A DNA stretch of 37,921 bases from Kiritimatiellia bacterium (GTDB taxonomy: Bacteria > Verrucomicrobiota > Kiritimatiellia > RFP12 > UBA1067). Below are positions 1 through 37,700 of this stretch, one piece after another. The notes beneath the pieces are model-generated. The model saw only the letters and a program-made list of their open reading frames with translations, was not told the origin of the DNA and did no database searches. The DNA lies in NCBI GenBank assembly GCA_017450695.1, contig JAFSTA010000078.1, positions 1 to 37,921 on the forward strand, read 5' to 3'. Position numbers and translations under genes: made by a program. How positions within the stretch are numbered: the first letter of the stretch is position 1; each line of letters begins with the position of its first letter.

Positions 1-262
1 AGTGGCGGCTGGCGCCGCCTAAGTGGGCTTGCGCCCTAAGTGGCGGCTGGCGCCGCCTAAGTGGGCTTGCGCCCTAAGTGGCGGCTGGCGCCGCCTAAGT
101 GAGCTGGCGCCCCTAAGTGGCGGGCTGGCGCCGCCTAAGTGGGCTTGCGCCCTAAGTGGCGGCTGGCGCCGCCTAAGTGGGCTTGCGCCCTAAGTGGCGG
201 GCTGGCGCCGCCTAAGTGGGCTTGCGCCCTAAGTGGCGGGCTGGCGCCGCCTAAGTGGGCTT
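1..262. repeat. Hairpin array A (38/39-bp tandem repeat, 7 copies)
   Basis: Seven near-identical units begin at 1, 39, 77, 116, 155, 193 and 232, so the period is 38 or 39 bp. Each unit holds two small inverted repeats: GGCGGC-TGGC-GCCGCC and GGGC-TTGC-GCCC. Both are separated from their neighbours by the hexamer CTAAGT. The third unit carries a variant second hairpin. The array is cut by the window's left edge, so its full length is unknown. The same hexamer-spaced hairpin design recurs at 4425-4558 and 9857-9964. Open frames through this stretch are repeat-encoded and are not taken as genes. Confidence 0.95.
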
Positions 263-510
263 TCGGAGCGAAGCGCGTATCACACCTAGGCATGCGGAGA
301 ATGGGACGCGCGACATACGCAGCGACATTCCGGCTTTCCGACACGCGCTTGTCGCGTGTCGCACGTCACCGTACCATTTCCTCATGCGGAAAATGGGAGG
401 GTAGCGCCCCGTCGCGACCGCAACGCTGAAAACGTCTTGCCTCTCAGCCTCTCAGCTTACCCGGCTTCACACGCTTACCCGGCTTCTCCCGACAGGGGTA
501 CAATTCCGTA
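263..510. other. Intergenic region with mixed repeat fragments
   Basis: No convincing gene is present. The stretch holds GCGAAGC (a mini-hairpin core) near 269, a perfect 8-bp stem GACACGCG/CGCGTGTC at 340-360, and two fragments resembling the 37-kb satellite (near 294-307 and 384-424). At 440-491 there are CTCAGCCT/CTCAGCTT octamers followed by a doubled CCGGCTT block. The octamers and the CCGGCTT block recur at 31186-31385. Confidence 0.6.
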
Positions 511-539
511 TTGAAGGAAGCTGGGGAAAACGCTATACT
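511..539 (+). promoter_or_regulatory. sigma70-type promoter of trpS-scpAB
   Basis: TTGAAG at 511-516 and TATACT at 534-539 are separated by exactly 17 bp. Transcription would begin near 546, about 20 nt before the trpS start codon. The ribosome binding site AGAGGAG lies at 554-560. Confidence 0.75.
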
Positions 540-565
540 ATTTCTTTTTCGCGAGAGGAGAAAAG

Positions 566-1528
566 ATGAGAATTTTATCCGGTGTGCAGTCTTCCGGAAA
601 ACTGCATTTGGGCAATTATTTCGGCATGATGAAGCAGGCGATCACCCTTCAGGAGAAAGGGGATGCCTATATCTTCATCGCGAACTACCATGCGTTGACG
701 ACCGTCCACAATCCCGATGAGATGCGTGAGAACACGAAGAACGTCGCGCTCGATTTCCTGGCTTGCGGACTCGATCCGGAGAAGTCCGTCTTTTTCCGTC
801 AGAGCGACGTGCCGGAGGTGCAGGAGCTGACGTGGCTGCTGTCGATCGTGACCCCGATGGGATTGATCGAGCGCTGCCACTCCTACAAGGACAAGCTGGC
901 GAAGGGGATTCCCGCCACGCACGGGCTTTTTTCCTACCCGGTGTTGATGGCGGCGGACATCCTGCTCTACCAGTCCGACCTCGTTCCGGTGGGCAAGGAC
1001 CAGAAGCAGCATCTGGAGGTGACGCGCGACATCGCGATCAAGTTCAACAACGAGTTCGGCGAGACCTTCAAGATTCCGGAGCCGTATATTCCGGACGAGG
1101 TGGCGATCGTGCCGGGCATCGACGGACAGAAGATGAGCAAGAGTTACGGGAACACGGTGCAGTTGTTCGGCGACCTGAAAGAGGCGAAGAAGCAGATCAT
1201 GCGGATCGTGACGGACAGCAAGGGGTTGGAGGAGCCGAAGGATCCCGACACCTGCAATGTCTATCTGCTTTACAAGCTCTTCGCTTCGCAGGAGGAACGC
1301 GAGCAGATGGCGGCGAACCTGCGCGCCGGTAACTACGGGTACGGGTCTGCGAAGAAGGAACTGTACGAGAAGTTCGTCGAGACCTTCACCCCGCTCCGCC
1401 AAAAGCGCGAGGAGCTGGAACGGAATCTCGATTACGTGGAAGAGGTCTTGCGCAAGGGCGCGGAACGGGCACGCGCCGCCGCGACGGTGACGCTGGACGC
1501 GGCGCGGCGCGCGACGGGTCTCTGCTAA
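566..1528 (+). CDS. trpS: Tryptophan--tRNA ligase (TrpS)
   Basis: Class I aminoacyl-tRNA synthetase that charges tRNA-Trp with tryptophan in the cytoplasm. The 320-residue length is normal for bacterial TrpRS. The N-terminus reads SGVQSSGKLHLGNYFG, which carries the HIGH-like ATP-binding signature (residues about 5-20). The KMSKS loop is present as GQKMSKSYGN near residue 187. The start ATG at 566 sits 5 nt after AGAGGAG, and a good promoter lies just upstream. The gene heads a compact same-strand run, with scpA starting 39 nt after its stop codon. The C-terminal tail is alanine/arginine-rich (RARAAATVTLDAARRATG) and looks like a normal final helix. Identification rests on the two ATP-site motifs and the overall length. 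Confidence 0.96.
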   Translation: MRILSGVQSSGKLHLGNYFGMMKQAITLQEKGDAYIFIANYHALTTVHNPDEMRENTKNVALDFLACGLDPEKSVFFRQSDVPEVQELTWLLSIVTPMGLIERCHSYKDKLAKGIPATHGLFSYPVLMAADILLYQSDLVPVGKDQKQHLEVTRDIAIKFNNEFGETFKIPEPYIPDEVAIVPGIDGQKMSKSYGNTVQLFGDLKEAKKQIMRIVTDSKGLEEPKDPDTCNVYLLYKLFASQEEREQMAANLRAGNYGYGSAKKELYEKFVETFTPLRQKREELERNLDYVEEVLRKGAERARAAATVTLDAARRATGLC

Positions 1529-1567
1529 GCGGACGTTTTTCAGCCAACCAATCCAACGCGGGACGGT

Positions 1568-2377
1568 ATGGGTCAAGAAGCGTTATTCTCGGAAGATTAC
1601 AAAGTCAATCTGGATGTCTTTGAAGGGCCTCTGGATCTCCTGTTGTACTTGATCCGTCGCGACGAGGTGGATATCTATGATATCCCTATCGAGCGGATTA
1701 CGAAGCAGTACATGGAGTACCTGAAGCTGATGCGCGAACTGAACCTGGATGTCGCAGGCGAGTTCATCGTTATGGCATCCACGCTGATGATGATCAAGAG
1801 CCGGATGTTGCTCCCTGTCGAGCGTCGTGTGGCGGACGACAGCGGCGGCGAGGAGTGGGTTGACCCGCGTCTCGACCTCGTGCGCCAGCTGATCGAGTAC
1901 AAGAAGTTCAAGGACGCCGCCTTGCGTCTCCAGTACTTCGAGGAGAGGCAGGAGAATGCGTTCTCCTTCGGCGGGGACGGTCCCGTCTTCGAGAAGACCG
2001 TTGCGGACGCGGGGCTGGCGCTGGGCGACATCGGGTTGTTCGATCTCCTGACTGCGTTCCAGGAAGTGCTGGCGCGTGCGCCGGAATTCGAAATGGGGCA
2101 GCTCAAGGGATCCGTCTGGACGGTTCCGGACAAGATGCGGATGATTGAGTCCCTCACGCAGGAGCAGGGGCATGTCAGTTTCTCCTCCCTCTTCCATGCG
2201 GAGACGCCGCGCGGGGAAATTATCGTGACCTTCCTTGCCTTGCTGGAGTTGCTGAGGATGCATCGCGTGTTGGTTCAGCAGACGGATTCGTTTCAGGAAA
2301 TCACGATCCTGCCTGGGGAGTTTGAAAACGGGGAGCCGCCACCGCTCGTGACAACGGGAGTAGATTCGTATGGATAA
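1568..2377 (+). CDS. scpA: Segregation and condensation protein A (ScpA kleisin)
   Basis: Kleisin subunit of the bacterial SMC-ScpAB condensin, which compacts and segregates the chromosome. The N-terminus carries the ScpA signature: FEGPLDLLLYLIRRDEVDIYD at about residues 17-37, then a helix ending in FIVMASTLMMIKSRMLLP. This part of ScpA contacts the SMC neck. The C-terminal part (about residues 175-250) looks like the winged helix that binds the SMC head. The 269-residue length is typical. The stop overlaps the scpB start by 8 nt, so the two subunits are probably translationally coupled. No smc gene is in the window. The start ATG at 1568 has only a weak GGGACGG element upstream. Confidence 0.95.
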   Translation: MGQEALFSEDYKVNLDVFEGPLDLLLYLIRRDEVDIYDIPIERITKQYMEYLKLMRELNLDVAGEFIVMASTLMMIKSRMLLPVERRVADDSGGEEWVDPRLDLVRQLIEYKKFKDAALRLQYFEERQENAFSFGGDGPVFEKTVADAGLALGDIGLFDLLTAFQEVLARAPEFEMGQLKGSVWTVPDKMRMIESLTQEQGHVSFSSLFHAETPRGEIIVTFLALLELLRMHRVLVQQTDSFQEITILPGEFENGEPPPLVTTGVDSYG

Positions 2378-3209
2378 TGAAATCAAGATGCCGATGGCGA
2401 AAAGCTTACAGCAGGTCATCGGTTCGCTGCTGTTCGCCTCCGACCATCCGTTGACCGCGGAGGAGATTCGCGCCTGCCTCAAGAACGTGGCGAAGGAAAG
2501 CAAGGAACGGGGCGAGGAGGACGAGACCGTCCAGCTTTTCGCGAATCAGCCTTTGCGCGAGGTGAAGGATGCGATCGGGGACATCCAGAAGGAACTGGCC
2601 CGGCTGGACTTGGGATTCGAGCTGGTCGAGACGAGCGCCGGTTTCCATTTCCAATCGCAGCCCGCCGGTGGACGCTGGGTGCGTAACCTGTTGAAGATGG
2701 ATCGCCCGAACCGCCTTTCCCATCCTGCGTTGGAGACGCTGGCGATTATCGCCTACCGGCAGCCGATTGCGAAGTCGGAGATTGAGGGAATCCGTGGTGT
2801 GGATGCCGGACATATCGTGAAATCGCTGATGGAACTTCACCTCATCCGCATCGTCGGGCGCAGCGAACTGCCCGGCCGCCCCTTCCTCTATGGTACAACC
2901 ACGACCTTCCTGGATCATTTCGGGTTGAGTACGCTCAAGGAGCTGAACGAACTGGACCCGACCCTCCAGCGCTCCAAGCCCTCCGAACGGAAGGCGGCAC
3001 ACACGAAGAAGAAAAAGGAGGAAACGGCATCCGACGCGCCTGTTCAGATGGAGTTGACGGAAGGGCAGGGGAAACCCGTGCAGAAACCCGACGGGAAGCC
3101 GCAGGCGAATCCGGACACGGAGGGGATTCGAGAGGTTTTGGGCAACGGGAAGGATGTCGGCTCCGAAGAATCTGTTTTTGAGGAAACAAAGGACGGGGAG
3201 GAGTCTTGA
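2370..3209 (+). CDS. scpB: Segregation and condensation protein B (ScpB)
   Basis: Partner of ScpA in the SMC condensin. Two winged-helix segments are recognisable: LQQVIGSLLFASDHPLTAEE near residues 14-33, and the ScpB hallmark ALETLAIIAYRQPIAKSEIE near residues 124-143, followed by VKSLMELHLIRIVGRSELPG. After the folded part (about residue 195) there is a roughly 80-residue charged, low-complexity tail (KKKKEE, then Gln/Gly/Glu-rich). The tail makes this ScpB longer than many (279 aa). The start ATG at 2370 lies inside the scpA end. The stop TGA at 3207-3209 shares its last base with the ATG of the next gene. Confidence 0.95.
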   Translation: MDNEIKMPMAKSLQQVIGSLLFASDHPLTAEEIRACLKNVAKESKERGEEDETVQLFANQPLREVKDAIGDIQKELARLDLGFELVETSAGFHFQSQPAGGRWVRNLLKMDRPNRLSHPALETLAIIAYRQPIAKSEIEGIRGVDAGHIVKSLMELHLIRIVGRSELPGRPFLYGTTTTFLDHFGLSTLKELNELDPTLQRSKPSERKAAHTKKKKEETASDAPVQMELTEGQGKPVQKPDGKPQANPDTEGIREVLGNGKDVGSEESVFEETKDGEES

Positions 3210-4420
3210 TGCGCATACCGCTGGCTTGGATGTTGTGCTGCCTGATTGGATGGTCGGTTTCCGCCCGGACGGTGAATGTCCGGGACGCGGGGGCGAAGGG
3301 CGACGGCGTGACGGACGATTCCGCCGCGATCCAGTCCGTTCTGGACAGCAAGGCGCGGCCGCTCGACGTGTGGATTCCGGATGGCGACTACCGGATCGTC
3401 CAGACGCTCAAGGTCTCCTCCGACACGACAATCCGTGCCGCCGCGCACGCCCGCCTGTTCCTCTGCGGGGAGACACGGCACAAGCGCGGCGATTTCCTGC
3501 TGGACAATGCCGACCACGAACAGGGAAATGCGAACATTACCATTGAGGGCGGCATCTGGGACGGGAACAACCAGGGACGGCTGAACAAAAAGGAGAGCGA
3601 CATCTTCAAGCCCGACGCCTGGTCCGGCACTACGATGAACTTCCGCAATGTCCGGAAACTGAAACTGCGCGACATGACCCTGGCGAACTCTGTCACCTAC
3701 AACATCCGCATGTGCCAGCTGTACGATTTCGAGATTCGCGACATCCGTTTTTTCAGCGAGCGCAAGGCGTATAACCAGGACGGGCTGCACTTCAACGGAT
3801 TCGTCTTCAACGGCGTGGTGGAGAATATCCGCGCCGTTTCCAAGGGGCAGACGAACGATGACCTGCTCGCGCTGAACGCGGATGACTCCATGGCGCGGCT
3901 GGAGAACTTCGGCATGACCTGCGGTCCGATCGAGAACATCGTCTTCCGCAACATCTTCGCGGAGGATTGCCATACGGCCGTCCGTTTCCTCAGCGTGATC
4001 TCCCCGATCCGGAATATCCGCATCGAGAACCTCACGGCGGGAATCCGCTGCTACAGCATCAACGCGGACGGGGCGCGCTATTGCCGCACCCCGCTCTTCC
4101 GCGACGAGGAACGACCGCAGGGCGTCGGCCTTCTGGAGAACATCGTGATCGACGGGTTCACAACCTGGACGACGAAGAAAGACCGGAACCCGCTGATCTG
4201 CCTGGAGACGAACCTGCGCGGTTGTACGCTGAAAAACATGACGCGAGACCTGGCCAAGGATGCCGCTCCCGACCGCGACTTCCTGCAGATCCGCAAGACC
4301 GCCGGAGTCCGCCTGTCTGGAACCGACGCGAAGGGAAACGCACAGCAGTGCGAGATCGGCGAACGGGAAAACCGTGTCTTCCACGAAGCTTTCAGCGACC
4401 TGATCCTGAACGGACGCTAG
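3209..4420 (+). CDS. Secreted pectate-lyase/GH28-like beta-helix protein
   Basis: Predicted exported right-handed beta-helix enzyme or polysaccharide-binding protein of 403 residues. A Sec signal peptide (MRIPLAWMLCCLIGWSVSA) is followed at once by VNVRDAGAKGDGVTDDSAAI, the start of the Pectate_lyase_3 family fold. Repeating N-I-x-I/F strand motifs continue to the end. NQDG (about residue 189) and NDDLLAL (about 215) resemble the NTDG and DD catalytic motifs of GH28 polygalacturonases. The GHG and RIK motifs of that family are not obvious, so the substrate is unknown. The ATG at 3209 overlaps the scpB stop as TGATG, with GGGGAGGAG just upstream at 3195-3203. That start is preferred over an in-frame TTG one codon earlier. 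Coupling of a secreted enzyme to scpB is unexpected. Confidence 0.8.
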   Translation: MRIPLAWMLCCLIGWSVSARTVNVRDAGAKGDGVTDDSAAIQSVLDSKARPLDVWIPDGDYRIVQTLKVSSDTTIRAAAHARLFLCGETRHKRGDFLLDNADHEQGNANITIEGGIWDGNNQGRLNKKESDIFKPDAWSGTTMNFRNVRKLKLRDMTLANSVTYNIRMCQLYDFEIRDIRFFSERKAYNQDGLHFNGFVFNGVVENIRAVSKGQTNDDLLALNADDSMARLENFGMTCGPIENIVFRNIFAEDCHTAVRFLSVISPIRNIRIENLTAGIRCYSINADGARYCRTPLFRDEERPQGVGLLENIVIDGFTTWTTKKDRNPLICLETNLRGCTLKNMTRDLAKDAAPDRDFLQIRKTAGVRLSGTDAKGNAQQCEIGERENRVFHEAFSDLILNGR

Positions 4421-4424
4421 ATTC

Positions 4425-4558
4425 ATTTAGGCGGTGCCAGCCGCAAGCCCTTGCAGGGGTTAAGTGCACTTCGTGCTAAGTGTCGCTTCGCTCCTAAATG
4501 CCCCTGCGGGGCTAAGTCACTTAGGGCGTAGCCCACTTAGGACCGAAGGTCCATTTAG
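4425..4558. repeat. Hairpin array B (hexamer-spaced mini-hairpins, orientation switch)
   Basis: The array fills the gap between two convergent genes. Units are short perfect inverted repeats separated by CTAAGT-type hexamers (TTAAGT 4460, CTAAGT 4476, CTAAAT 4494, CTAAGT 4512). After 4518 the spacer flips to ACTTAG (4519 and 4535) and ATTTAG (4553). Stems include GCAC/GTGC with loop TTC, CCCC/GGGG with loop TGC, GGGC/GCCC with loop GTA, and GGACC/GGTCC with loop GAA. One ATTTAG at 4425, next to GCGG/CCGC, breaks the otherwise simple symmetry. The last 40 bp (4519-4558) match array C at 9925-9964 with three differences. Confidence 0.9.
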
Positions 4559-4568
4559 CTGCATCTTC

Positions 4569-5000
4569 TCATCCATTCCATGCGGCGCGGATTCTGCGGG
4601 CCAGTTCGACGATGTCGATTTTCCAGTCGCCGTCTTCTTTCTTCAACGGCACATGCACGGTCACTTCCTCGTCGCGGTCCGCTTGCGACACGTGAACGGT
4701 CACGGTGGCGGCATCCTCCTGTTCAATGGATTCCGACTCGATCTCATACGCGACTTTCTGCAGCCGGATGCGGAACGCCGTGTCCGTGCGGATCTGGAAG
4801 AAATACTGCGTTTTCAGGTCGGAGACGAGCTTCCGCGAATCCGCGTCGCTTCGGAAGTTTTTCTCGATGCCGGAAAGATCCTCTTGCAGAACCGCGTCGG
4901 CGGCCCGCTTGACCACGCGGGAGGGAGACGGGCCTCCGCATCCCGACAACAAGACGGACAGAACGAGCAGAGAAACGAGGCGAACAGAGACACGTAACAT
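4569..5000 (-). CDS. Small predicted lipoprotein
   Basis: A 143-residue lipoprotein. The N-terminus is MLRVSVRLVSLLVLSVLLSGC, a signal peptide with lipobox LLSGC, lipidated at Cys21. The mature part begins with helices (SRVVKRAADAVLQEDLSGIE) and ends in antiparallel strands with WKIDIVELARRI. This layout recalls small NTF2-like/DUF4878 lipoproteins, but the similarity is weak and no function can be assigned. The start ATG at 4998-5000 has AGGAG at 5009-5013. A longer in-frame start 12 codons upstream would overlap the upstream terminator and is rejected. The gene lies downstream of tkt on the same strand, separated by an intrinsic terminator that ends next to its ribosome binding site. Confidence 0.75.
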   Translation of the reverse strand: MLRVSVRLVSLLVLSVLLSGCGGPSPSRVVKRAADAVLQEDLSGIEKNFRSDADSRKLVSDLKTQYFFQIRTDTAFRIRLQKVAYEIESESIEQEDAATVTVHVSQADRDEEVTVHVPLKKEDGDWKIDIVELARRIRAAWNG

Positions 5001-5014
5001 GGCGAAGACTCCTG

Positions 5015-5048
5015 AAAAAACTGGCGGCAGCCCCACTCGTGGAGCTGC
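5015..5048 (-). terminator. Intrinsic terminator of tkt
   Basis: On the minus strand a 10-bp stem (GGCAGCTCCA with TGGGGCTGCC, one T-G wobble) closes a CGAG loop. It is followed by GCCAG and six T residues (5020-5015). A second hairpin, GGCGCG-TTTT-CGCGCC, lies at 5067-5082. The T run ends 1-2 nt before the AGGAG of the lipoprotein gene. Confidence 0.85.
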
Positions 5049-5095
5049 CGTCCGTGATTCTGCGTCGGCGCGAAAACGCGCCGGATGGGGTTTTC

Positions 5096-7111
5096 TTACT
5101 TCCGGAAAAGCTCACGCGCTTTCGCGACGACATGCTCCGGCGTGAAACCGAACTTCTCCGCAAGTTTCTTATAAGGTCCGGACTCTCCGAAGTGGTCGAG
5201 CGTGATGAACGCGGTGGCGCGGCAGTTGTCGAGGAACTTTTCCCAGCCGAACGACGAACCCGCTTCAATCACCATGCGGCGGTTGCAGTTGACGTCGATC
5301 ACGCGGTCGCGGTATCCCTGGTTCTGCTTGGCGAACAATTCCCAGCTCGGCATGGAGACGACGCGGACATTCTTGTCCGGCATCATCCGCGCGGCTTCAA
5401 GCGCGAGGGAGACCTCGGAACCGGTCGCGATCATGATCAGATCCGGCGTACTCGCCACGTCACGCGACTGCCACAGGATGTAGGCGCCCTTCTCCAGATT
5501 CGCCGCCGAAGGGGAGTGTTCCCGGTCGATGACCGGAAGTCCCTGGCGGGTCAGCAGAATCGCCGTCGGCCCCTTCTTGTTCTTCAGCGCGGCAATCCAC
5601 GCCGCGCCGGTTTCCGTTGCCTCCGCCGGACGAATCACCGTCAGGTTGGGCATACAGCGCAGGGAGGCGAGCTGTTCGACCGGCTCGTGCGTCGGCCCGT
5701 CCTCACCCACATAGAAGCTGTCGTGGGAGAAGACGAAGATGACGGGGAGTTTCATCATGCAGGCGAGACGCAACGCGGGACGGCAATAGTCGCTGAACAC
5801 GAAGAAGGTGCCGCCGAAGATGCGGAACCCGCCGTGGGCGGCAATGCCGTTCATCACGCAGGACATGCAGAGTTCGCGGATGCCGAAGTGGAAATTGCGC
5901 CCGGCAAACTGGTTCGCCGCGATGTCGCCCATCTCCTTAAGGTAGGTCTTGTTCGACGGCGCGAGGTCGGCGGAGCCGCCGACGAGTTGCGGCAGCGACT
6001 TGGCGAGCGCGTTCAGCACCGTACCGGAGGCGGCGCGGGTGGCGACGGGCTTTGCGGGGTCGAACGCCGGAAGCAGCTCGTAGATGTTCTCCGGGATCAC
6101 ATCATTCTGACAGGCGTTCCACTGTTGGGCGAGGGCGGGGTTGGCGGCCTGCCATTCCTTCAGGTAGCGGCGCCACTTGTTCGCGATCCGCTTGCCCTTG
6201 GCGGCACGCTCCGCGAACGCGGCGCGGACCTCCTCCGGCACGTAGAACGGTTCGGCGGGCAGACCGAGAGCCTGCTTCGTCAAGGCGACCTCCTCCTCTC
6301 CGAGGGGCGCGCCGTGGACGTCGGCGGTGTCGTGCTTGTTCGGGGATCCCTGACCGATGTGCGTGTGGCAGATAATCAGGACCGGCTTGCCGGTCAGCTT
6401 CATCGCCTTCTTGATCGCCTTGTCGATCTGCTCGAAGTCATGGCCGTCGATTTCCAGCACATGCCAGTCGTAAGCCTTGAAACGCAGTTTCGGATCGTCG
6501 TGCATCGAGAGGTCTGTGCTGCCCTCGATCGTGATCCGGTTGCTGTCGTAGAAAACGACCAGCTTGTCGAGCTGAAGGTGTCCGGCGAGGGAGCAAGCCT
6601 CGTGGCTGACGCCCTCCTCCATGTCGCCGTCGCCGCAGAACACCCAGGTACGGTGATCCACGAGCGGCTGCTGCCCCTCCACATTGAACCGTGCGGCGAG
6701 CATCCGTTCGGCGGCGGCCATACCGACGGCGGCGGCGAGTCCCTGCCCGAGCGGGCCGGTCGTGATATCCACGCCGGGGGTGTGGCCGTATTCCGGATGG
6801 CCGGCGGTCAAGCTGCCGACCTGGCGGAAGTTCTTGAGGTCGTCCAGCGAGACGCCGTACCCCATCAGGTGCAGGATCGCGTAGAGGAGCATGGAACCGT
6901 GTCCGCCGCTCAGCACGAAGCGGTCCCGGTCCTCCCATTTCGGATTCGTGGAATCGACCTTCAGGTATTTCAGCCACAGAACGGCGGCGATATCCGCCAG
7001 CCCCATCGGCGCACCGGGATGGCCGGAGTTCGCGGCCTGAACGCCGTCGATCGCCAATCCGCGGATCGTGTTCGCGGCCAATGAAATCACATCGTCGTTT
7101 GCCTTAATCAT
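5096..7111 (-). CDS. tkt: Transketolase
   Basis: Thiamine-diphosphate enzyme of the non-oxidative pentose phosphate pathway. It moves two-carbon ketol units between sugar phosphates in the cytoplasm. Visible signatures are SGHPGAPMGLADIA (about residues 29-42), GPLGQGLA (about 119) and the ThDP/metal motif GDGDMEEG (about 158). In the pyrimidine-binding domain there is FHFGIRELCMS (about 406), with the Glu that activates the cofactor. The third domain begins near residue 540. At 671 residues it is full length. ATG at 7111 has AAAGGA upstream. It follows infC after an intrinsic terminator, so it may be transcribed partly by read-through or from its own undetected promoter. Confidence 0.97.
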   Translation of the reverse strand: MIKANDDVISLAANTIRGLAIDGVQAANSGHPGAPMGLADIAAVLWLKYLKVDSTNPKWEDRDRFVLSGGHGSMLLYAILHLMGYGVSLDDLKNFRQVGSLTAGHPEYGHTPGVDITTGPLGQGLAAAVGMAAAERMLAARFNVEGQQPLVDHRTWVFCGDGDMEEGVSHEACSLAGHLQLDKLVVFYDSNRITIEGSTDLSMHDDPKLRFKAYDWHVLEIDGHDFEQIDKAIKKAMKLTGKPVLIICHTHIGQGSPNKHDTADVHGAPLGEEEVALTKQALGLPAEPFYVPEEVRAAFAERAAKGKRIANKWRRYLKEWQAANPALAQQWNACQNDVIPENIYELLPAFDPAKPVATRAASGTVLNALAKSLPQLVGGSADLAPSNKTYLKEMGDIAANQFAGRNFHFGIRELCMSCVMNGIAAHGGFRIFGGTFFVFSDYCRPALRLACMMKLPVIFVFSHDSFYVGEDGPTHEPVEQLASLRCMPNLTVIRPAEATETGAAWIAALKNKKGPTAILLTRQGLPVIDREHSPSAANLEKGAYILWQSRDVASTPDLIMIATGSEVSLALEAARMMPDKNVRVVSMPSWELFAKQNQGYRDRVIDVNCNRRMVIEAGSSFGWEKFLDNCRATAFITLDHFGESGPYKKLAEKFGFTPEHVVAKARELFRK

Positions 7112-7130
7112 AGTGCAGAGTCCTTTCGAT

Positions 7131-7161
7131 AAAAAACGCGCACGCCTTGCACGGCGGCGCG
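7131..7161 (-). terminator. Intrinsic terminator after infC
   Basis: Minus strand: CGCGC-CGCC, loop GTGCAA, GGCG-T-GCGCG (9 bp with one bulged T), followed immediately by TTTTTT (7136-7131). An extra perfect 9-bp hairpin, GCGGGAAAG/CTTTCCCGC, lies between the infC stop and this terminator at 7166-7187. Confidence 0.8.
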
Positions 7162-7192
7162 GTTTGCGGGAAAGCTGCCTTTCCCGCGTTGG

Positions 7193-7792
7193 TTACGCAT
7201 TCGGTTTGCTATCGGACGAATCGTCCGCGTCATCCTTCTGTTGTGCGGGACGGGACGGCTGGTTGCCGCCGCCGGACTTGCCGGCCGCACGCGGCGCGAG
7301 CAGGCAGCCGAGTGTTTTTCCGACCAGTTTCGGTGCCTGTTCCACGGTCGCCTTGTCGGCGCAAGCCTCGATTACCTTCTGGATCACCTCCGCGCCCAGA
7401 TCCTTGTGGGCGTTTTCGCGTCCGCGGAACTGCATCGAGACCCGGACTTTGAAACCGGACTCAAAGAAGCCCATCATCTGGCGCAACTTGTGCCCGAGGT
7501 CATTCGTGTCCACGCCGGGGTGGAACTTGATCTCCTTGACCACAACGGTCTTCTGGCTCTTGCGGGCCTGCTTCCGTTTGATGCTTTCCTCGTAACGGAA
7601 TTTCCCGTAGTCCATGATTTTGCAGACGGGGGGCTGCGCGTTGGGCGAGACCTCGACGAGATCCAGTCCCTGCGCGTCCGCCAACTTCTGCGCCTCGCGC
7701 GTGGGCATCACGCCCAGCATTTGACCATTGCTTCCGAGAACGCGAACCTCCGGAACGCGAATCTTGAAGTTAACCCTGATGAACGAAGCGAT
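7193..7792 (-). CDS. infC: Translation initiation factor IF-3, probable AUC start
   Basis: IF-3 binds the 30S subunit and checks the start codon-initiator tRNA pairing. The conserved core is plain: LGVMPTREAQ, LVEVSPNAQPPVCKIMDYGK, KEIKFHPGVD and FRGRENAHKDLG. From the first in-frame ATG (7720) the protein would lack the N-terminal beta strands. The frame stays open upstream and encodes IRVNFKIRVPEVRVLGSNGQ, which aligns with the normal IF-3 start. No ATG, GTG or TTG occurs there, and an in-frame TGA lies at 7798-7796. The only well-placed codon is ATC at 7792-7790, 3 nt after GGAGGTGA (7803-7796). A rare start codon is a known IF-3 autoregulation device (AUU in E. coli). The protein would be 199 residues with an acidic low-complexity tail. 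It follows thrS, an ancestral gene order. Confidence 0.93.
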   Translation of the reverse strand: MASFIRVNFKIRVPEVRVLGSNGQMLGVMPTREAQKLADAQGLDLVEVSPNAQPPVCKIMDYGKFRYEESIKRKQARKSQKTVVVKEIKFHPGVDTNDLGHKLRQMMGFFESGFKVRVSMQFRGRENAHKDLGAEVIQKVIEACADKATVEQAPKLVGKTLGCLLAPRAAGKSGGGNQPSRPAQQKDDADDSSDSKPNA

Positions 7793-7826
7793 AGCTCACC
7801 TCCATTGTTGGACCGCAGCTGCGGTC
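7790..7826 (-). promoter_or_regulatory. infC translation start region: perfect SD, AUC codon, 16-nt palindrome
   Basis: Reading the minus strand, a perfect palindrome GACCGCAGCTGCGGTC (7826-7811) is followed by CAACAAT, then GGAGGTGA (7803-7796), then GCT and the ATC start codon (7792-7790). The Shine-Dalgarno sequence is unusually complete, as expected where a weak start codon must be used. The palindrome can form a 6-bp hairpin with an AGCT loop just upstream of the ribosome site. Confidence 0.7.
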
Positions 7827-7852
7827 ACTTTCTTTCCTTTGTTTTTGTACCC

Positions 7853-9589
7853 CTATGCCTTCAAGGATTCCTTGAACAGCTTCCGGAATTCCTCCAGCGT
7901 CATCGCGCCGAGGTCTCCCTTTTCACGGCTGCGAACCGAGACGACGCCCGCCTCGATGTCGCGCTTTCCGATGATGACCATGAACGGCACCTTCTCCAGC
8001 TGCGTCCGCCGGATCTTCGCGCCGAGCTTGTCACTCTCCTCATCCACCGTCACGCGGATGTCTTCGTCCAGCAGACGGTCGCGCAGCTCGCGCGCGAACT
8101 CCGCCTGTCCGGAAGTGATCGGGAGGATGCGCACCTGCTCCGGCGACAGCCAGGTCGGGAACGCGCCTCCGTAATGTTCGATCAAGATTCCGAAGAACCG
8201 CTCCAGGCTGCCGAGCAGCGCGCGGTGTACCATGTACGGCTGGTGTTCCTTGCCGTCCTCGCCCACGTAGCAGAGGTTGAAGCGTTCCGGCAGGTTGAAG
8301 TCGAACTGCACGGTGCCCAGCTGCCACGGGCGCCCCAGCGCGTCCTTGATCTTCAGGTCGATCTTCGGCCCGTAGAAGGCGCCGCCGCCCTCATCAACCT
8401 GGTAGGCGATCCCTTCCGCCTCCAGCGCCTGGCGCAGGGAGTCGGTCGCCTGGTTCCAGCGCGCCTCCTCGCCGACCGAATGCTCGGGGCGTGTGCTGAG
8501 GTAGGCGCTGATGTCGGTGAACCCGAAACGGTGCAGGATAGCCAGCGCGAACTTCACGGTGAACTTGATCTCCTCGACGATCTGCTCCGGCGTGCAGAAG
8601 ATGTGCGCGTCGTCCTGCGTGAACCCGCGCACGCGAAGCAGCCCGTGGCGCACGCCCTCTTTCTCGTACCGATAGACCGTGCCCAGCTCGGCGAAGCGGA
8701 GCGGCAGGTCGCGGTAACTGTACCGCCGCGTCTTGTAGATTTCGATGTGGAACGGGCAGTTCATCGGCTTCACGTAGTACGGCTCGACCGTGCGCGAATC
8801 ACCGTCGCCCTCCGCCACGCTCATGGAGGGGAACATGCTCTCCTTGTAGAACCCCAAATGCCCGCTCGTCTCCCACAGGTAGCTGCGCCCGATGTGCGGC
8901 GTGAAGACCATCTGGTAGCCCGCCTTGAAATGCTGCTTGCGCCAGTAGTCCTCGATCGCGATACGGATACGCGCCCCTTTCGGGTGCCAGAGCGCGAGAC
9001 CGGGACCGATGGAATCGCTGATGCTGAACAGATCCAGCTCCTTGCCGAGACGACGGTGGTCGCGGCGCTTCGCCTCCTCGATCCACGCCAGCTTCGCCTC
9101 GATGTCCTTCTCCGAGGCCTCCGCCATGCCGTAGAGACGCTGCAGCATCTTGTTCTTCTCGTCGCCGCGATAGTAAGAACCGGCGATGGAGAGGATTTTG
9201 ACCGCCCCGATCTTGCCGGAACTCTCGACGTGAGGGCCTCGGCAGAGATCCACGTATTCGCCCGTGTAATAAACCGTGATCAGCTCCCCTTCGGGAACGT
9301 CCGCCAAGCGCTCCAGCTTATAGGGCTGGTCTTTGAAAATTTCCTTCGCCTCCTCGCGCGTCACCTCCTTGCGCTCAAAGGGGAGGTCGGCGGCAATGAT
9401 CTTCCGCATCTCTTCCTCAATCTGCGGGAAATCCTCCGGCGTCAACCTGTGCTCCAGGTCGAAATCGTAATAGAAACCCTCATCGGTCGCCGGACCGATG
9501 TCAATCTTCGCATCCTTGTACAAACGGCAGACGGCGGCAGCCATCACATGGGCCGCGCTGTGCCGCATCATCATCAAACTATCGTCCAC
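7853..9589 (-). CDS. thrS: Threonine--tRNA ligase lacking the N-terminal TGS domain
   Basis: Class II synthetase that charges tRNA-Thr and edits mischarged serine. The 578-residue protein starts directly at the editing domain. The HxxxH motif is HSAAH at residues 10-14, and CRGPH completes that site. The catalytic core has the zinc ligands MNCPFH, the His in DDAHIF and the His in VHRALLGS, and motif 2 is RVRGFTQDD. The C-terminal anticodon-binding domain ends in GAMTLEEFRKLFKESL. E. coli ThrRS is about 60 residues longer because of an N-terminal TGS domain, which is absent here. The start GTG at 9589 follows GGAGG (9599-9595) by 5 nt. The gene precedes infC by 60 nt, but rpmI and rplT do not follow. 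Confidence 0.96.
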   Translation of the reverse strand: MDDSLMMMRHSAAHVMAAAVCRLYKDAKIDIGPATDEGFYYDFDLEHRLTPEDFPQIEEEMRKIIAADLPFERKEVTREEAKEIFKDQPYKLERLADVPEGELITVYYTGEYVDLCRGPHVESSGKIGAVKILSIAGSYYRGDEKNKMLQRLYGMAEASEKDIEAKLAWIEEAKRRDHRRLGKELDLFSISDSIGPGLALWHPKGARIRIAIEDYWRKQHFKAGYQMVFTPHIGRSYLWETSGHLGFYKESMFPSMSVAEGDGDSRTVEPYYVKPMNCPFHIEIYKTRRYSYRDLPLRFAELGTVYRYEKEGVRHGLLRVRGFTQDDAHIFCTPEQIVEEIKFTVKFALAILHRFGFTDISAYLSTRPEHSVGEEARWNQATDSLRQALEAEGIAYQVDEGGGAFYGPKIDLKIKDALGRPWQLGTVQFDFNLPERFNLCYVGEDGKEHQPYMVHRALLGSLERFFGILIEHYGGAFPTWLSPEQVRILPITSGQAEFARELRDRLLDEDIRVTVDEESDKLGAKIRRTQLEKVPFMVIIGKRDIEAGVVSVRSREKGDLGAMTLEEFRKLFKESLKA

Positions 9590-9661
9590 AACTACCTCCT
9601 ACCGGTAGGACACACAAACGTCCGCCGGTGAAATTCGTTACAGGTTTATCAGAAAGCCATT

Positions 9662-9690
9662 ATTTTCGGGGAAAAGCGGACAAAAGTCAA
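9662..9690 (-). promoter_or_regulatory. Candidate promoter of thrS-infC
   Basis: On the minus strand TTGACT (9690-9685) and GAAAAT (9667-9662) are 17 bp apart. The leader would be about 65 nt. It contains a palindrome, CCTACCGGTAGG (9610-9599), that overlaps the thrS Shine-Dalgarno GGAGG, so translational control is possible but unproven. Confidence 0.5.
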
Positions 9691-9844
9691 GCCCGATCTG
9701 CGAGGAATCAGAAGGAGGCGGGGAAGTGGCACGGGGTGCGTCTCGCGTGTCGCATGTCAGGAGGGGAGGGGCGCGCCCCGTCCTATGCAAGGCTACGGAG
9801 GACCGGCAAACACGACCCAATTCGGGCAACGAGGACGTTACCCC
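9691..9844. other. Intergenic stretch without a gene
   Basis: No coding or RNA gene is seen. It holds GGGGCGCGCCCCGTC near 9767, resembling the 127-bp satellite, and two CCC(A/G)ATTCGGG inverted repeats near 9818 and 9848 that lead into hairpin array C. Confidence 0.5.
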
Positions 9845-9847
9845 TCC

Positions 9848-9992
9848 CGATTCGGGCTAAGTCAACTTAGAGCCAATGGCTCACTTAGGACGAAGTCCAC
9901 TTGCCAACTTAGGGGCATAGCCCCATTTAGGGCGTAGCCCACTTAGGACCAAAGGTCCATTCAGCGGCACCGCCGCAGGAGTGCCGCTTCCC
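9848..9992. repeat. Hairpin array C (hexamer-spaced mini-hairpins)
   Basis: One CTAAGT (9857-9862) is followed by a run of ACTTAG-type spacers at 9865, 9883, 9907, 9925 (ATTTAG), 9941 and 9959 (ATTCAG). Between them lie perfect hairpins: GAGCC/GGCTC loop AAT, GGAC/GTCC loop GAA, GGGGC/GCCCC loop ATA, GGGC/GCCC loop GTA and GGACC/GGTCC loop AAA. A larger GCGGCAC/GTGCCGC inverted repeat ends the array (9964-9988). The spacer direction read from the 3' end of the neighbouring minus-strand gene is CTAAGT/CTAAAT. Confidence 0.9.
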
Positions 9993-9997
9993 CGAAA

Positions 9998-10091
9998 GTC
10001 GACGGCGAGGGCGCCGTCGCTACGCAGCGGGCGCGACACGCATACTAGCCTCTCAGCTTTTCAGCTTCTCAGCTGGCGCGAAGCGCCCCGC
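9998..10091. repeat. Satellite fragment plus CTCAGC octamer/GGCGCGAAGCGCC element
   Basis: Bases 10001-10029 are an exact inverted copy of a 29-bp block of the 127-bp satellite at 37108-37136. From 10050 octamers of the GCTTCTCA type lead into GGCGCGAAGCGCC (a 5-bp stem with a GAA loop, about 10075-10087) directly beside the stop codon of the next gene. The same octamer-hairpin unit recurs at 15178-15222, 31206-31383 and 37525-37573. Confidence 0.85.
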
Positions 10092-13000
10092 TTACCGGAC
10101 CGACAGGACGAGTCCGCCCTTTCTCCCGTAGCACAGCGTGTGCAAGCCGCCCTGTACCCGGACGAAGAAGTGGCGTCCGTCCGCATCGGATCCGGAGGGA
10201 TAGCTGACATTCGCCGTCGTCTTCGCGATCGGCACGAATCGATTCGTTGTCCAGTCCACGCCGTTTGTCGCCGGCAGAACGACACCCGCCTCGAACGCGA
10301 TGTTCCCGCCGAACGTCGCGTTCGGCACGTCGATCGTCGAGCCGGACGCCACCCGCAGACCGCCCGCGAACGTGGAGGATGAGGTGAACGTGCCGTTCGA
10401 CACGACTACGTCGCCACTGAACGACTGGTTGCCCGTCAGCGTCAGTTTCCCGCCGCCCATCTTTACGAGGCCGCCCGTGCCTTTCATGCCCACGTCCGCC
10501 GTCACGTCGAAGGCGTTGGAAATGACGAGTCCGTTTGCTCCGAGCGTCGGCGACGGCAGTCCCGACGGCATGAAGTTCACCGCCTCCGCCTTCGGCACGA
10601 GTGTCGCGCCGTCGAAGAGGATGGAGGAGTCGGCTTTCTTGTTCTTGTAGATGAAATTCGAGAGATAGACAACGGTGTTCTTCAACACCAGCGTCTGGGT
10701 GCTGTAGTTGCTGCTGCCGTAGGCGAACTGGATGGCCGAGCACGTCAGCACGGAGTTCGTCAACGCCAGCACGGACACCGCCTTGCTGTTGTTGGAGAGG
10801 TAGAGCGGATAGTTGCCGACATCAATGATGCCGCCGTCGCCGATCAGCGAACCGCTGGAGGTGTGCCCGACGAACCACTCACGCTTCGCGACGAAACGCC
10901 CTCCGTTCAACACCTCCAGCGAGGAAACGCCGTCATTGGCGCCAAGCACGTGGTTGTTGCCCGCAAACGTGTTCGTGTACGTTCCGCCGTCAATCGTGAG
11001 ATGGGCGCCATATTGGAGGTAGATACGCGAGGCGTAAGAGACGAGCGAACCCTTTCCGAATGTGAAGGCCGTTCCGTTCAGGCGCTGTTCATCGCTCCCG
11101 GAGATTTTCACCGTGCCGTTGCGGATCTCGCCGCCGTCACGGAATGACTCCGTGCCATTCCCTGCCTGCGTGACGGCAAAGGTCTGCACGGCGCCGCCGA
11201 GATCGAGGACGCCGGAGATCACGTTCGTGTTCACCGCCGTCGAGAAGGGATTCGTCACGCAGTTCGCGTTCTCCAGTACGAATGCCGCCCCGTTCGCGAC
11301 CGTAATCGGAACGTTGTCGAAGCACGCCGTCTCGACGTTGGCCGTATGGCAGCCGAATCCGGCCGTGATACTCCCCAGGCGAAGGCCGTTCGCGCAGTCG
11401 AAGATGGAGTAACCGCCGACGCTGAAAATAACATGGTCGCAGACGAAGACCGGGTCGTTGATGTTCCAGTTCCCCGCAGTCGTCCACTTCGCGTCCGCGC
11501 CGGCTCCCGTCCACACATGGGTCTTCGGATTGAACGTGACCGTCAGCGCGCCGCCTTCCACAAAGCCAACCGTGCAGGCCGGGTCGATCTCGAGGCGGCT
11601 CAGGGTGGCCGCATCCAGTCCGGATGAAAACAGCGTGTAGGGTCTGTTCGGCTCCGGGTAACCGGCGGAGACGTCGAACGTGATCGAGACCTTGCCGTCC
11701 GTGTTCGCGTCGAGAACCAGCGCGATGTTCGTGGATGCGAACCCGCCCTCCGGCGAGAAGCCCAGCCGCAGCGTCGTGCCGTCGGCCATCGCGATTCGCG
11801 CCGCATCCGGGAAGGAGGCGCCCGGATTCAACGCCAGCGTACCCTTCCGCACGTCGATGCCGCCCGTGAACGTGCTTGGTCCCGCAAGCGTCAGTGCGCC
11901 GATGCCTTCTTTCACGAGACCGCCCACGCCGGCCATCCCCTTGGCGATGGTGATGTCATACTCGTTGGTGATGGTCAATCCGCCCGCGCCGATCGTCGGC
12001 ATGGGCATGTTCGCGTTACCCGGTATGAAGTCGGTCGCGGCCGCTTTCGGCACGAGCGTCACGCCGTCGAGGAGGAACGAGGAGGCCGCATTCGTCCGTT
12101 GCCCGACGAATTTGGAAAGGTTGAGGACTGTATCCTTCAGGCTCACGGTCTGCACGCCAACGGCGGTTCCCGATGAATAGCCGAACAGGAATCTGCCGCA
12201 CGTGAGCGTGGAGTTTGTGAGCGCCAGAACGGACCCGTTATAAATCGACATGTAAAAGGCATTGTCGCCCACGTCGATCACGGCATCCTCGCCGACCATT
12301 GTCGCATTGGCGTTGAATCCCAGCCAAATTTCACTTGTCGCCAGAAAACGTCCGCCGTTCCGCAGAACTATGATCCCTTCGTGATTTCTGCCGATTGGAT
12401 TGTTGCCGAAATCGGGATCGGCGTATGTGGTGTTTAAGGTTCCGGCATCGACGACGATAGATGCGTTGTCGAGACTGAGACGCAGCGGTCCTACGACAGT
12501 TGCACCTGTACCGACCGTGAAGCTCGTATTCTTGAAGAGGGCGTCCGAGGTCGGATTGACCGTTAGCGTTCCGTTGCGGATTTCACACCCGTCGCGGAAG
12601 AACCCCGTATCGTTACCGGCCGTCGTGGTCGTAATGGTCTGCGTGGCGCCGCCGAGATCAAGGAGGCCGCCGACCGCATTCTCGTTCGCCACCGTCGAGA
12701 ACGGGTTGGTCACGCCCTCCGCGTTCTCCAGCACGAACGCCGCTCCGTTCGTGACCACAAGAGGCGCGTTGGCGAAAGACGCCGTCGCGACATTCGCCGT
12801 ATGGCAGCCGGAGTTGACGGTGATGTCCCAGAAGGGAAGCCCGTCCGTACCATCGAAGACGGAGTGACTGTCCGTGCCGCCGAACACGACCCGGTCGAGC
12901 GGGCCGAGCGCACGGTTCACGTCCCAGTTATCCGTTGTCGTCCATTTCTCGTCCGCGCCGCCGCCCGTCCACACGCGCGTGGTCGGCGTGTGCTCAAGCG

Positions 13001-31088: not shown

Positions 31089-34000
31089 ATGGCCCCGAGG
31101 ATAAGATTCGTGAACCACCAACACAGAACACAGAACTTAGAACTCGGACCCGAACGGGTAGTCCGCCGCCCGCGCTCACGCGGAAATACCCGGCTTCACA
31201 CGCTTACGCAGCCTCTCAGCTTTTCAGCTTCTCAGCAGGCGCGAGGCGTCCCGCTTCCCCGGCTTAACACGCTGGTGCGCCCCCCCCTGCTTCTCAGCCT
31301 CTCAGCTTTTCGGCTTCTCAGCAGGCGCGAAGCGCCCCGCTTCCCCTGTTTTTCAGCCTCTCAGCTGGCGCGAAGCGCCCGGCTTATCCTGCTCGGCCTG
31401 TTTCTGGCGGGGCGCGTCTTCGCCTTCGATTTCGACGCGGCTTGGGGACGGGTGGATCAAGCGGTCGCGCAAGGTCATCCGAGCACCGCGATCCGCGAAC
31501 TGACCGAGATCGAGAAAGAGGCCGTCTCCCTTCGCGAATGGGCGCAGGCGATCCGTTGTTCCGCCGTCCGCATTCTGGTTTCCCTCGACCTCGAAAAGAC
31601 CAAGATGGAGGAACTGCTTCCCGTCTTTTCCGATTTCGCAGAGGTGGCACCCGAACCGATGCGTCCGGGCTTGCAGCTGCTGGTCGCGCATCTGTACTGG
31701 ACCTACTATCGCGAGAACCATTGGCGTTTCCTCCATCGGTCTGCCTCCTCCGGAGACGCGGAACGCGATCCGGCGGCATGGTCGCGCGAACGGATTCTCG
31801 CCGAGATCGAATCCCGTTTCAAGCGGGTCTTGGCTTTTGAAACCGAGCTGCAACAGGTTCCGGTCGAAACCTATGCGCCGCTGTTGCAATCCGGTGCGCT
31901 TCCGGACGCCTGTCGCCCGACGCTTTACGATTTCGCGGTCTATGACATGCTGGACTTCTACCGTCAGACCGCCTACGCCCGTCCCGCCGACACACGCTGG
32001 ACGTTGAAGCCGTCCGGCGCCTGTTTCGCCTCTGCCGAGAAATTCCAGCAGTTCGTTCCCGACTCCCTGTCTGCGGAGTCCGTCCTCTTTCGCGGCATCC
32101 GCCTTCTTCAGAACCTTCTCCGTTTCCACGAGAAGGATACGGATCGGACCGCCTTTGCCGACGCGGACTTGGCGCGTCTGCAGTTTTGTTACGAGTTCGG
32201 AACGGGGCCGCGCGGGGCGAAGCAATACGCGGATGCGCTCGACCAGTTCATGTCGCGCAACCGCGCGATGGAAGTTTCCGTGCGCGCGGCCGCGCTTCGT
32301 GCGGAACTGGCCTGCGGCGGGGGGCAGGACTTCGGCTTGGCGCACTTGATCGCCTCGCGTGCCGTGGCGCGTTTCCCGGAAAGCGTGGGCGGAGTGGCCT
32401 GCCGCAAGTTGATCGAGCGGTTGGAAACGCCGTCGTTTTCCGTCCTGACGGAAGAGTCGTGGTGTGAGCCGTGGACGGAGCTGACGGTTCTGTACCGGAA
32501 TTTGTCCGACATCTTTCTTCGCCTGATCCCGTTGACGCCGCGCGAGGTCATGGAACTCGCACCGGTCGAGTGGGCGCGGCTTCAGAAGCCCGCTTCCCGC
32601 TCGTGGACACAAACGCTGCCGCCGGCGAGCGATTACAAGGAACACCGGTTTTCCGTTCCGATTCCCAAGGGGATCGCCCCCGGCCTGTATGCGCTGATTG
32701 CCTCGGACGATCCGACCTTCGAAAAAAACGGAACGGGCGTTGCGGTCAGGTTGATCCACGCGGGAGATCTGGCGGTTGTCACACGTACAGACCAACCTTC
32801 GGGTTTTGTCTTGCGCGCGACGGATGGAATGCCGGTTGCGGAGGCGACCGTCCAGCTGTGGGAGGCCTCGTCGGGCGCCAAGAAATCATGGCGTGCCGTC
32901 TCCGAAACGACTAGCGATGAGAACGGCGCGTTCGACCTCGGTTCCTTCCGCAAGGATGGACGGATCGTGGCGTGGACGACGGACGGACGGTGCGCGTTCG
33001 CCCCCTTCGAGTCGTCCTGGAGACGGGAGAAACGCAAGACGGCGGGAGAGCAGGTCGCGCTTTTTGCCGACCGGGCCGCGTACCGTCCCGGCGAAACGGT
33101 TTCCTTCTCCGGCGTCTGTTACGTTTCAAATCCCGACAAGGATCAGTTCCATGTTCTCTCCAACCGCACGGTTTCCGTTTCCTTGACGAATCCGAAAGGC
33201 AAGGGGATTGCGTCGCTGAAACTGGAGAGCGATGCCTACGGCGTCATTCACGGGGCGTTTCAGTTGCCGGAGAAGGAGGTCGGCACCTTCTCCCTGCGCG
33301 TGGAGAAACAATCCGTCGCGATTCCGGTGACGGAAAGCGCGGGCGAGAAGTTCGCCGTTCGTTTGCGTGTCGCCCAGAATGAAATCCGCTTCGGCGATCA
33401 GGTGCTCGCGGAAGGGATTGCGGAGACGGCCGGGAAACTGCCCCTTGCCGATGCCAAGGTCGCGTGGCGTGTCATGGTCGGCAAATGCGGAGCCGCGCCG
33501 GGGGGAGAACAGGTGATTGCAAGCGGGGAAATCATAACCGATTCGCGTGGGCATTTCCCGATTCTCTTCACGGCGGAAACGGATGCGGATGGAAAACTCG
33601 GCGAAAAGGATGTGTACCGGTATCGCGTGGTTGCGGAGGTGACGGATCGTTCCGGCGAAACGCACTCCGCCGACTGGTCGTGCCGCGTCGCCTCCGCGAT
33701 GTGGGAATCGGATGTCACGGTGGATGAGTACACGCTTTCCGATCGCCCCGTCTCGTTCCGCGTCGCGGTTCGGCAACTGAACGGCGGCGGTGTCGGCACG
33801 AAAGGGCGGCTGCGGATTTTTACGGTGCGGACGCCCACCCGCGTTCATCGCGATCCCTTGCTGACGGACGAGGAACGGTTGGTCGTTCCCGATTTGGCGG
33901 AGGAGGATGCCGCCAGCCGCGACTGGGAGATGTGGAAGGAGCAGGACGAGATCGCGTCGCAGCAGATTGCGACCGATGCCAACGGCCTCGCCAAGGGAAG

Positions 34001-37082: not shown

Positions 37083-37430
37083 TGAGCGGGACGCGCCCCG
37101 TCGCGACCGCTGCGTAGCGACGGCGCCCTCGCCGTCGGCTTCTCTCACGCGGAGTGCGAAAGGGGGACGCGTTTTTTTATCGCACGCGGAGACGCGGAGG
37201 CGCGGAGAATGGGAGGGACGCGCCCCGTCGCGACCGCTGCGTAGCGACGGCGCCCTCGCCGTCGGTTTCTCTCACGCGGAGGTGCGGGAAATGGGACGCG
37301 TTTTTTGTCTCGCGCGGAGACGCGGAGGCGCGGAGAATGGGAGGGGAGCGCTTGTCGCGACCGCTGCGGAGCGACGGCGCCCTCGCCGTCAGTTTCCCTC
37401 ACGCGGAGACGCGGGAAATGGAGCACGGTT
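37083..37430. repeat. 127-bp tandem satellite, about 2.7 copies
   Basis: The block CGCTGCGTAGCG followed by ACGGCGCCCTCGCCGTC begins at 37108, 37235 and 37362 (one base changed), an exact 127-bp period. Each unit contains nested hairpins (CGACGGCG-CCCT-CGCCGTCG) and a GGAGACGCGGAGGCGCGGAG purine-rich stretch. A 29-bp piece occurs inverted at 10001-10029. Confidence 0.9.
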
Positions 37431-37700
37431 TTCGCTTCACCCATTTGGTGAAGAATCGATCCCTTCTTATTCTCTTTCCAAACCTCGCTCGATTCTGCAA
37501 AACACCTCAATTTTCGGCCCGCTTCTCAGCCTCTCAGCTTCCCCGCTTCTCAGCTGGCGCGTAGCGCCATCAGTGGCTCTGCGTGAGAACCCAAACGAGG
37601 AATCTAGGGTAAAAGGAACAGGGAACGTTCCAATCGCTGACATCAGAAGGATCAGCGGAGAAAAACAGGTGTGCCGCCCCCTAAAATTCGGCGAATTCCA
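37431..37700. other. Intergenic repeats upstream of the PA14 gene
   Basis: No gene is seen. CTCAGC octamers with GGCGCGTAGCGCC (GTA loop instead of GAA) lie at 37525-37573. The 29-bp dispersed repeat, copy 2, is at 37580-37608. The rest, to 37700, shows nothing recognisable apart from a short GGGAACGTTCC palindrome. Confidence 0.7.

Follow-up and report, generated by a model that had tools for sequence, protein, structure and literature searches.

The closest described systems are REP elements, which carry GTAG or CGTC tags, assemble into mosaics and include subfamilies with alternative complementary stem bases; the verrucomicrobium O. terrae has copies inside genes, as does Rickettsia conorii (PMC3733652). 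Small perfect palindromes are the substrates of group 3 TnpAREP enzymes, which cleave at CT/CA, in one system at a position chosen by the tag; the TnpA of S. maltophilia requires an almost perfect stem and a loop containing G, and its binding withstands changes of the tag (PMC8266576). Rickettsia palindromic elements (RPEs) are palindromes of 100-150 bp that lie within and between genes (PMC3767692, PMC2229807).

The DNA analysed here (the window: the whole stretch of 37,921 nt, contig C251 of G000, the 5.03 Mb, 287-contig genome of a rumen Kiritimatiellae-type bacterium) contains arrays of mini-hairpins with a TTAG tag. Like REPs and BIMEs, they are short palindromes in many copies, whose conserved tag precedes the stem on its 5' side; they form mosaics in both orientations and are mostly intergenic, sometimes in frame. 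However, the tag is TTAG within ACTTAG (in the arrays listed below) instead of GTAG/CGTC, each array holds many different stems in a strict two-armed order, and a linked RAYT was not found. With RPEs and the Wolbachia WPEs they have in common that palindromes are both intergenic and in frame in conserved proteins; RPEs lie there at tolerated sites and often in orthologues alike (PMC3767692, PMC2229807). Set against RPE features as these are described, they differ: RPEs are stem-loops of about 100-150 bp with terminal inverted repeats, whereas TTAG arrays consist of mini-hairpin units of 15-22 nt that vary in number and order, and RPEs are reported to lose repeat identity over time (PMC6649704), whereas many TTAG-array stems remain perfect. 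Since the way of life is shared with REPs and RPEs but the tag, unit and architecture differ, the arrays are members of neither.

Two further systems are similar in part. PARCEL elements, patchily distributed, are palindromic DNA repeated in tandem and translated in frame into recurring peptides (PMC2996958), but their unit is 25 residues long and sits in ORFs without assigned function, whereas the TTAG unit encodes six residues in known enzymes and is also non-coding. In nematomorph mitochondria perfect inverted repeats are kept in coding sequence (PMC6649704), but there the arms encode conserved protein, whereas the TTAG array is an extra insert. No description of TTAG-tagged arrays was found in the literature searched, outside which most subscription papers lay. 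An earlier note on this DNA had proposed a candidate undescribed element family. The data support a distinct family; to speak of an undescribed kind of element goes too far, the design being common to REPs, BIMEs and RPEs, and the note's contrast with REPs as having conserved stems is contradicted by the subfamilies with alternative complementary stem bases (PMC3733652). The arrays extend the known protein-coding palindromic elements (Rickettsia, Wolbachia, Opitutus) to rumen Kiritimatiellae, with a modular build absent from the known ones.

Arrays in the window and beyond

Three arrays are present, at 1-262, 4425-4558 and about 9857-9963 (placed at 9848-9992 by the earlier note), with the stems that had been named for them. 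Their features are as follows.

1..262, plus strand: left-arm-type array with 13 CTAAGT spacers, cut by the contig edge
4425..4518, plus strand: left arm of a two-armed element, stems and spacers read from the sequence in the order ATTTAG, GCGG..CCGC, GCCC..GGG, TTAAGT, GCAC-TTC-GTGC, TAAGT, GTCGC-TTC-GCTCC (two mismatches), TAAAT, GCCCC-TGC-GGGGC, TAAGT
4512..4524, no strand: central palindrome CTAAGT-C-ACTTAG, at which the unit orientation flips
4519..4558, minus strand: right arm, ACTTA, GGGC-GTA-GCCC, ACTTA, GGACC-GAA-GGTCC, ATTTAG
9857..9870, no strand: centre CTAAGT-CA-ACTTAG of the third element, from the sequence
9865..9963, minus strand: right arm of the third element, with spacers ACTTA/ATTTA and hairpins GAGCC-AAT-GGCTC, GGAC-GAA-GTCC, GGGGC-ATA-GCCCC, GGGC-GTA-GCCC, GGACC-AAA-GGTCC

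Read on the minus strand, 4519-4558 becomes a run of TAAGT-spaced hairpins with TNC loops. It is identical to 9925-9964 at 37 of 40 bases, and the homology asserted earlier is correct down to its three differences, two in spacers and one in a loop. The first array is plain local amplification with a 38-bp period, in which GGCGGC(TGGC)GCCGCC alternates with GGGC(TTGC)GCCC. Contig C27 of the same genome begins (1-128) with this amplified array in the opposite orientation. Because both contigs start within one amplified array, an assembly break probably falls inside it, and the two contigs may be neighbours in the genome.

The pattern CTAARTG-N8-14-CTAAGT matched 14 times in the window (mean 0.005 in shuffles) and 246 times in G000, against 2 matches for the reversed control pattern. 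Together with stem pairing above that of shuffled units (below), these counts mean that the arrays, which occur genome-wide, are neither confined to the window nor made of chance palindromes, the two doubts that the earlier note had raised against itself. A scan of named genomes found the repeat in the rumen Kiritimatiellae MAGs RGIG2765, RGIG6996 and RGIG2632, as well as in UBA3624 and RUG572. The strict pattern occurred in 7 of the 346 genomes of the class, spread over 3 of its 121 genera; this distribution is a lower bound, since the pattern used for relatives was CTAAGT repeated and misses other spacers such as the TTAAAT of G004. That genome, a relative without CTAAGT arrays, carries TTAAAT-spaced CGGGCAAAGCCC units of similar length (L113, G004:C74:7733-7776), and other spacer types of the same hairpin-array design may exist. 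The double unit CTAAGTGNNNCTTCGNNNCTAAGTG had zero exact matches in viral contigs, and viral spread of the arrays was rejected on this ground.

An ordered, two-armed element

On the ACTTAG strand, a unit consists of the TTAG tag, directly followed by a short GC-rich palindrome and then by ACTTAG again; the loop either has three bases with G first (GNA) or is a tetraloop of the GCCA type. The unit period in G000 is 15-22 nt. The anatomy of the arrays was worked out on 58 of them in 728 kb of G000, mainly on contigs chosen for having matches. In left arms TAAGT separates hairpins with mostly TNC loops, in right arms ACTTA separates hairpins with mostly GNA loops, and CTAAGT-n-ACTTAG (n = 1 or 2) forms the centre. 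Orientation switched from plus to minus 27 times, against 3 times from minus to plus, mostly at CTAAGT-n(1-2)-ACTTAG. As in BIMEs, the arrays are mosaics with units in both orientations, here with one flip per element. The centre found at 4512..4524, CTAAGT-C-ACTTAG, is the commonest of the genome sample (7 copies).

The units form ordered composite two-armed elements and are no random mix. The type A element has three ordered hairpins, GATAAGT-GGCGGC-TGC-GCCGCC-TAAGT-GGCCC-TGC-GGGCC-TAAAT-GGGGC-TGGC-GCCCC-TAAGTTGACTT, and is present in 22-25 copies in G000 with largely unrelated flanks. The array at 4425-4558 represents a second ordered type with about seven slots.

Arrays within reading frames of a sister genus

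By our own ORF scoring, used instead of an annotation, none of 57 arrays in G000 and none of 24 in G001 was coding; all 58 arrays sampled in G000 were intergenic. In the sister genus g13, which includes RUG572 (G036), UBA3624 (G198) and RGIG2632 (G201), nearly all arrays lie within long open frames, in frame. One design is confined to intergenic DNA in the window's genus, as far as sampled, and is almost entirely coding in the neighbouring genus. The reading phase in g13 is constant (CTAAGT 81/81, ACTTAG 86/87), the period is 18 nt in 328 of 332 units, and the elements end in TTAAGT...ACTTAA. Left arms translate as LSxxSx (LSAASQ, LSGPSG) and right arms as LSREAT, LRGEAP or LRAEGP; the predicted peptides, for example LSAASQLSGPSG, are found within enzymes and recur in unrelated proteins.

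In carboxynorspermidine decarboxylase the insert measures ~47 residues and PDB entry 9eaf aligns on both sides of it; entries 2itm and 5vm1 likewise flank the insert in xylulokinase. Further hosts are a PFL-like glycyl radical enzyme and an HZS_alpha/FGE-sulfatase protein with two sites, PFL-like, Gly_radical, FGE-sulfatase and HZS_alpha being the domains recognized. As judged from alignments only, the inserts fall between conserved blocks or domains. In-frame insertion into conserved genes, a feature of RPEs, was seen in g13 only.

Orthologues show gain and loss. The xylB insert is present in G036 and G200 (97% identical) and in G278 of another family, and absent from six orthologues within the genus at 76-82% identity (the empty site in G203 follows from match coordinates only). 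Site 1 of the HZS/FGE gene is occupied in UBA3624 and empty in its RUG572 orthologue, which a frame break in the assembly splits; the two genes are 95% identical over the longest aligned stretch and 85-90% beside site 1. Both sites are empty in G000 and G001. At occupied sites the number and order of units vary, and orthologous arrays differ by whole units. Because one genus contains both occupied and empty orthologues at 76-82% identity, it permits direct measurement of insertion, of the exchange of units and of constraint on the frame. A target-site duplication was not definable at the g13 insert sites, as the linkers that form the empty sites have diverged. The idea of an autonomous transposon with terminal arrays was rejected: in UBA3624 and G036 the two arrays of such a pair, about 2 kb apart, both lie in frame in a single long gene.

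A probable family of dispersed selfish palindromic repeats

We consider it probable that the arrays constitute a dispersed, non-autonomous, selfish family of palindromic repeats, related in design to REP/BIME and to Rickettsia palindromic elements. Mobility here is deduced from comparisons between genomes, with zero transposition events seen directly. Spread would proceed through a single-stranded DNA hairpin intermediate, and the cutting and joining, at the CT of the spacer, may be done in trans by a Y1 HUH enzyme like those of the TnpAREP/IS200-IS605 group. Such cleavage would free exact TAG-hairpin-ACT units of 18 nt. By analogy, the array unit, in which TTAG and a perfect 5-bp stem with a G-first loop precede A-CT-TAG, resembles the substrates of TnpAREP. 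The units would be amplified and re-perfected by slippage of replication from spacer to spacer and by template switches from arm to arm, and in coding copies the host's need to keep the frame would fix the period at 18 nt. A counterpoint to the selfish reading is that the strong perfection of the stems could also be a product of structural selection.

No mover gene was found for the arrays. A search of 21 genomes for Y1_Tnp found it in all but G046, and since it is present with or without arrays its co-occurrence is uninformative. Among the array-bearing genomes an array lies beside a Y1_Tnp gene at one locus only (L091 in G001), which chance can explain; neither result supports RAYT/Y1 as a linked mover. 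G046 itself contains 15-bp tandem repeats, CTAAGTGTAAGGCGA, that form no hairpin and have only the spacer in common with the arrays.

A more elaborate scheme, which we regard as possible but unlikely, is a tiny-integron-like system of single-strand cassettes, in which a Y1 HUH enzyme would recognize by shape TTAG plus any short perfect hairpin whose loop starts with G, and would swap exact 18-nt units at CT. If true, it would account for the free stems, for the constant spacer and for insertion into genes with the frame intact, and the arrays would have been built unit by unit.

Unlikely, too, is that the arrays are not mobile at all and arise from replication error alone, template switching making and correcting the stems and slippage multiplying them with neither enzyme nor function. 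Template switching is known to make and maintain perfect hairpins (PMC8794818), and HZS/FGE site 1 offers what we read from the sequence as its mark: a 13-base host sequence adjoins its exact inverted copy, CTTCGGGCGAAAC-TA-GTTTCGCCCGAAG (L037), and in another species (L164) a substitution in the host base is matched in the inverted copy. The 38-bp tandem at 1-262 is likewise local amplification. However, replication error leaves unexplained the fixed TAAGT spacer, the ordered composites at unrelated sites and the recurrence of one peptide-coding array in genes that are not related to each other. Such error probably operates in addition to dispersal.

Stem pairing and selection on RNA structure

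It is improbable that the arrays are selected structured RNAs or regulatory elements (terminators, mRNA stabilizers, protein-binding hairpins) in which the need for an RNA fold drives covariation. The pairing itself is strong. Inner stems of 92 distinct G000 units paired at 0.854, compared with 0.364 for shuffled units, the control that the earlier note had proposed, and 0.695 when 3' arms were swapped between units. Distinct units of G000, G001 and g13 gave 0.85-0.92, against 0.30-0.37 shuffled and 0.57-0.70 arm-swapped. In addition, the array at 4425-4558 folds better than shuffles, both as DNA and as RNA, and lies 4 bp past a stop codon in the gap between convergent genes.

The mismatches tell against selection on RNA structure. 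The hairpins had been called perfect; among the 92 distinct units 52 are, 28 have one mismatch and 12 have more, so that 40 are imperfect. Examples within the window are GTCGC-TTC-GCTCC at 4482-4494 and GAGCTGGCGCCCC in the array at 1-262. Nor do both arms always change together, as had been claimed: a slot-by-slot comparison of 22 type A copies, counted from the slot table, gave about 5 independent compensatory changes, against about 18 breaks on one side only. Most of the stem diversity that the earlier note took for covariation consists of differences between slots. Over all genomes, one-sided mismatches were G-T in 14 units and A-C in 20 (binomial P for so few G-T, 0.20). As G-T does not exceed A-C, there is no sign of G-U tolerance on the TAAGT strand, nor of selection on one RNA strand, and a G-U excess as proof of RNA selection was rejected. 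A strand preference by hairpin energy was also rejected, modelled energies being equal for both strands of triloop units.

Of 48 classifiable G000 arrays, 22 lie in tandem, 12 in convergent and 14 in divergent gaps, and some are near start codons; all gap types are used alike, and terminators or other 3'-end elements were rejected because the gap types do not fit. The hairpins are followed by TAAGT/ACTTA and lack the T tract of Rho-independent terminators, Rfam covariance models gave zero matches up to E = 1 over window positions 1-10200, and g13 has these arrays within reading frames. The mismatch pattern fits copies that were born perfect, then decayed and were sometimes restored. If perfect palindromes are copied and template switching in some cases corrects one arm from the other, the stems are explained as well as by RNA selection. 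Strong covariation of stems among repeats need not imply a selected RNA structure.

Other repeats nearby

Least credible is that the arrays are canonical GTAG REPs of a RAYT with a degenerate tag: the size class, the palindrome, the mosaic grouping and the alternative complementary stems are those of REPs (PMC3733652), the genome has a Y1_Tnp and in-frame REPs are known from the verrucomicrobium O. terrae (PMC3733652), but T rather than G precedes TAG, each array has many stems, and the genome's RAYT is surrounded by GTAG REPs of a different family.

This second REP family, an ordinary one tagged GTAG (CGTAGCGACGGCGCCCTCGCCGTCG), is found in the window at 37088-37421 and at about 10003-10030 (minus strand), in tandem within a 127-bp repeat, and also in and around the RAYT-like Y1_Tnp gene on contig C137 (L061, 6779-7627). 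Beside the second, weak Y1_Tnp match of G000 (L032, 1369-1990) lie GGAG-tagged palindromes (GGAG GGCCGCAA TTTA TTGCGGCC), which are another REP-like family. CTCAGC is a further intergenic repeat. It is strongly strand-biased (17 on the plus strand, 2 on the minus strand), clusters in runs such as CCTCTCAGCCTCTCAGCTT, found in the window at 440-460, 10052-10075, 31215-31365 and 37525-37555, and also flanks type A elements (GCTGAGAAGC).
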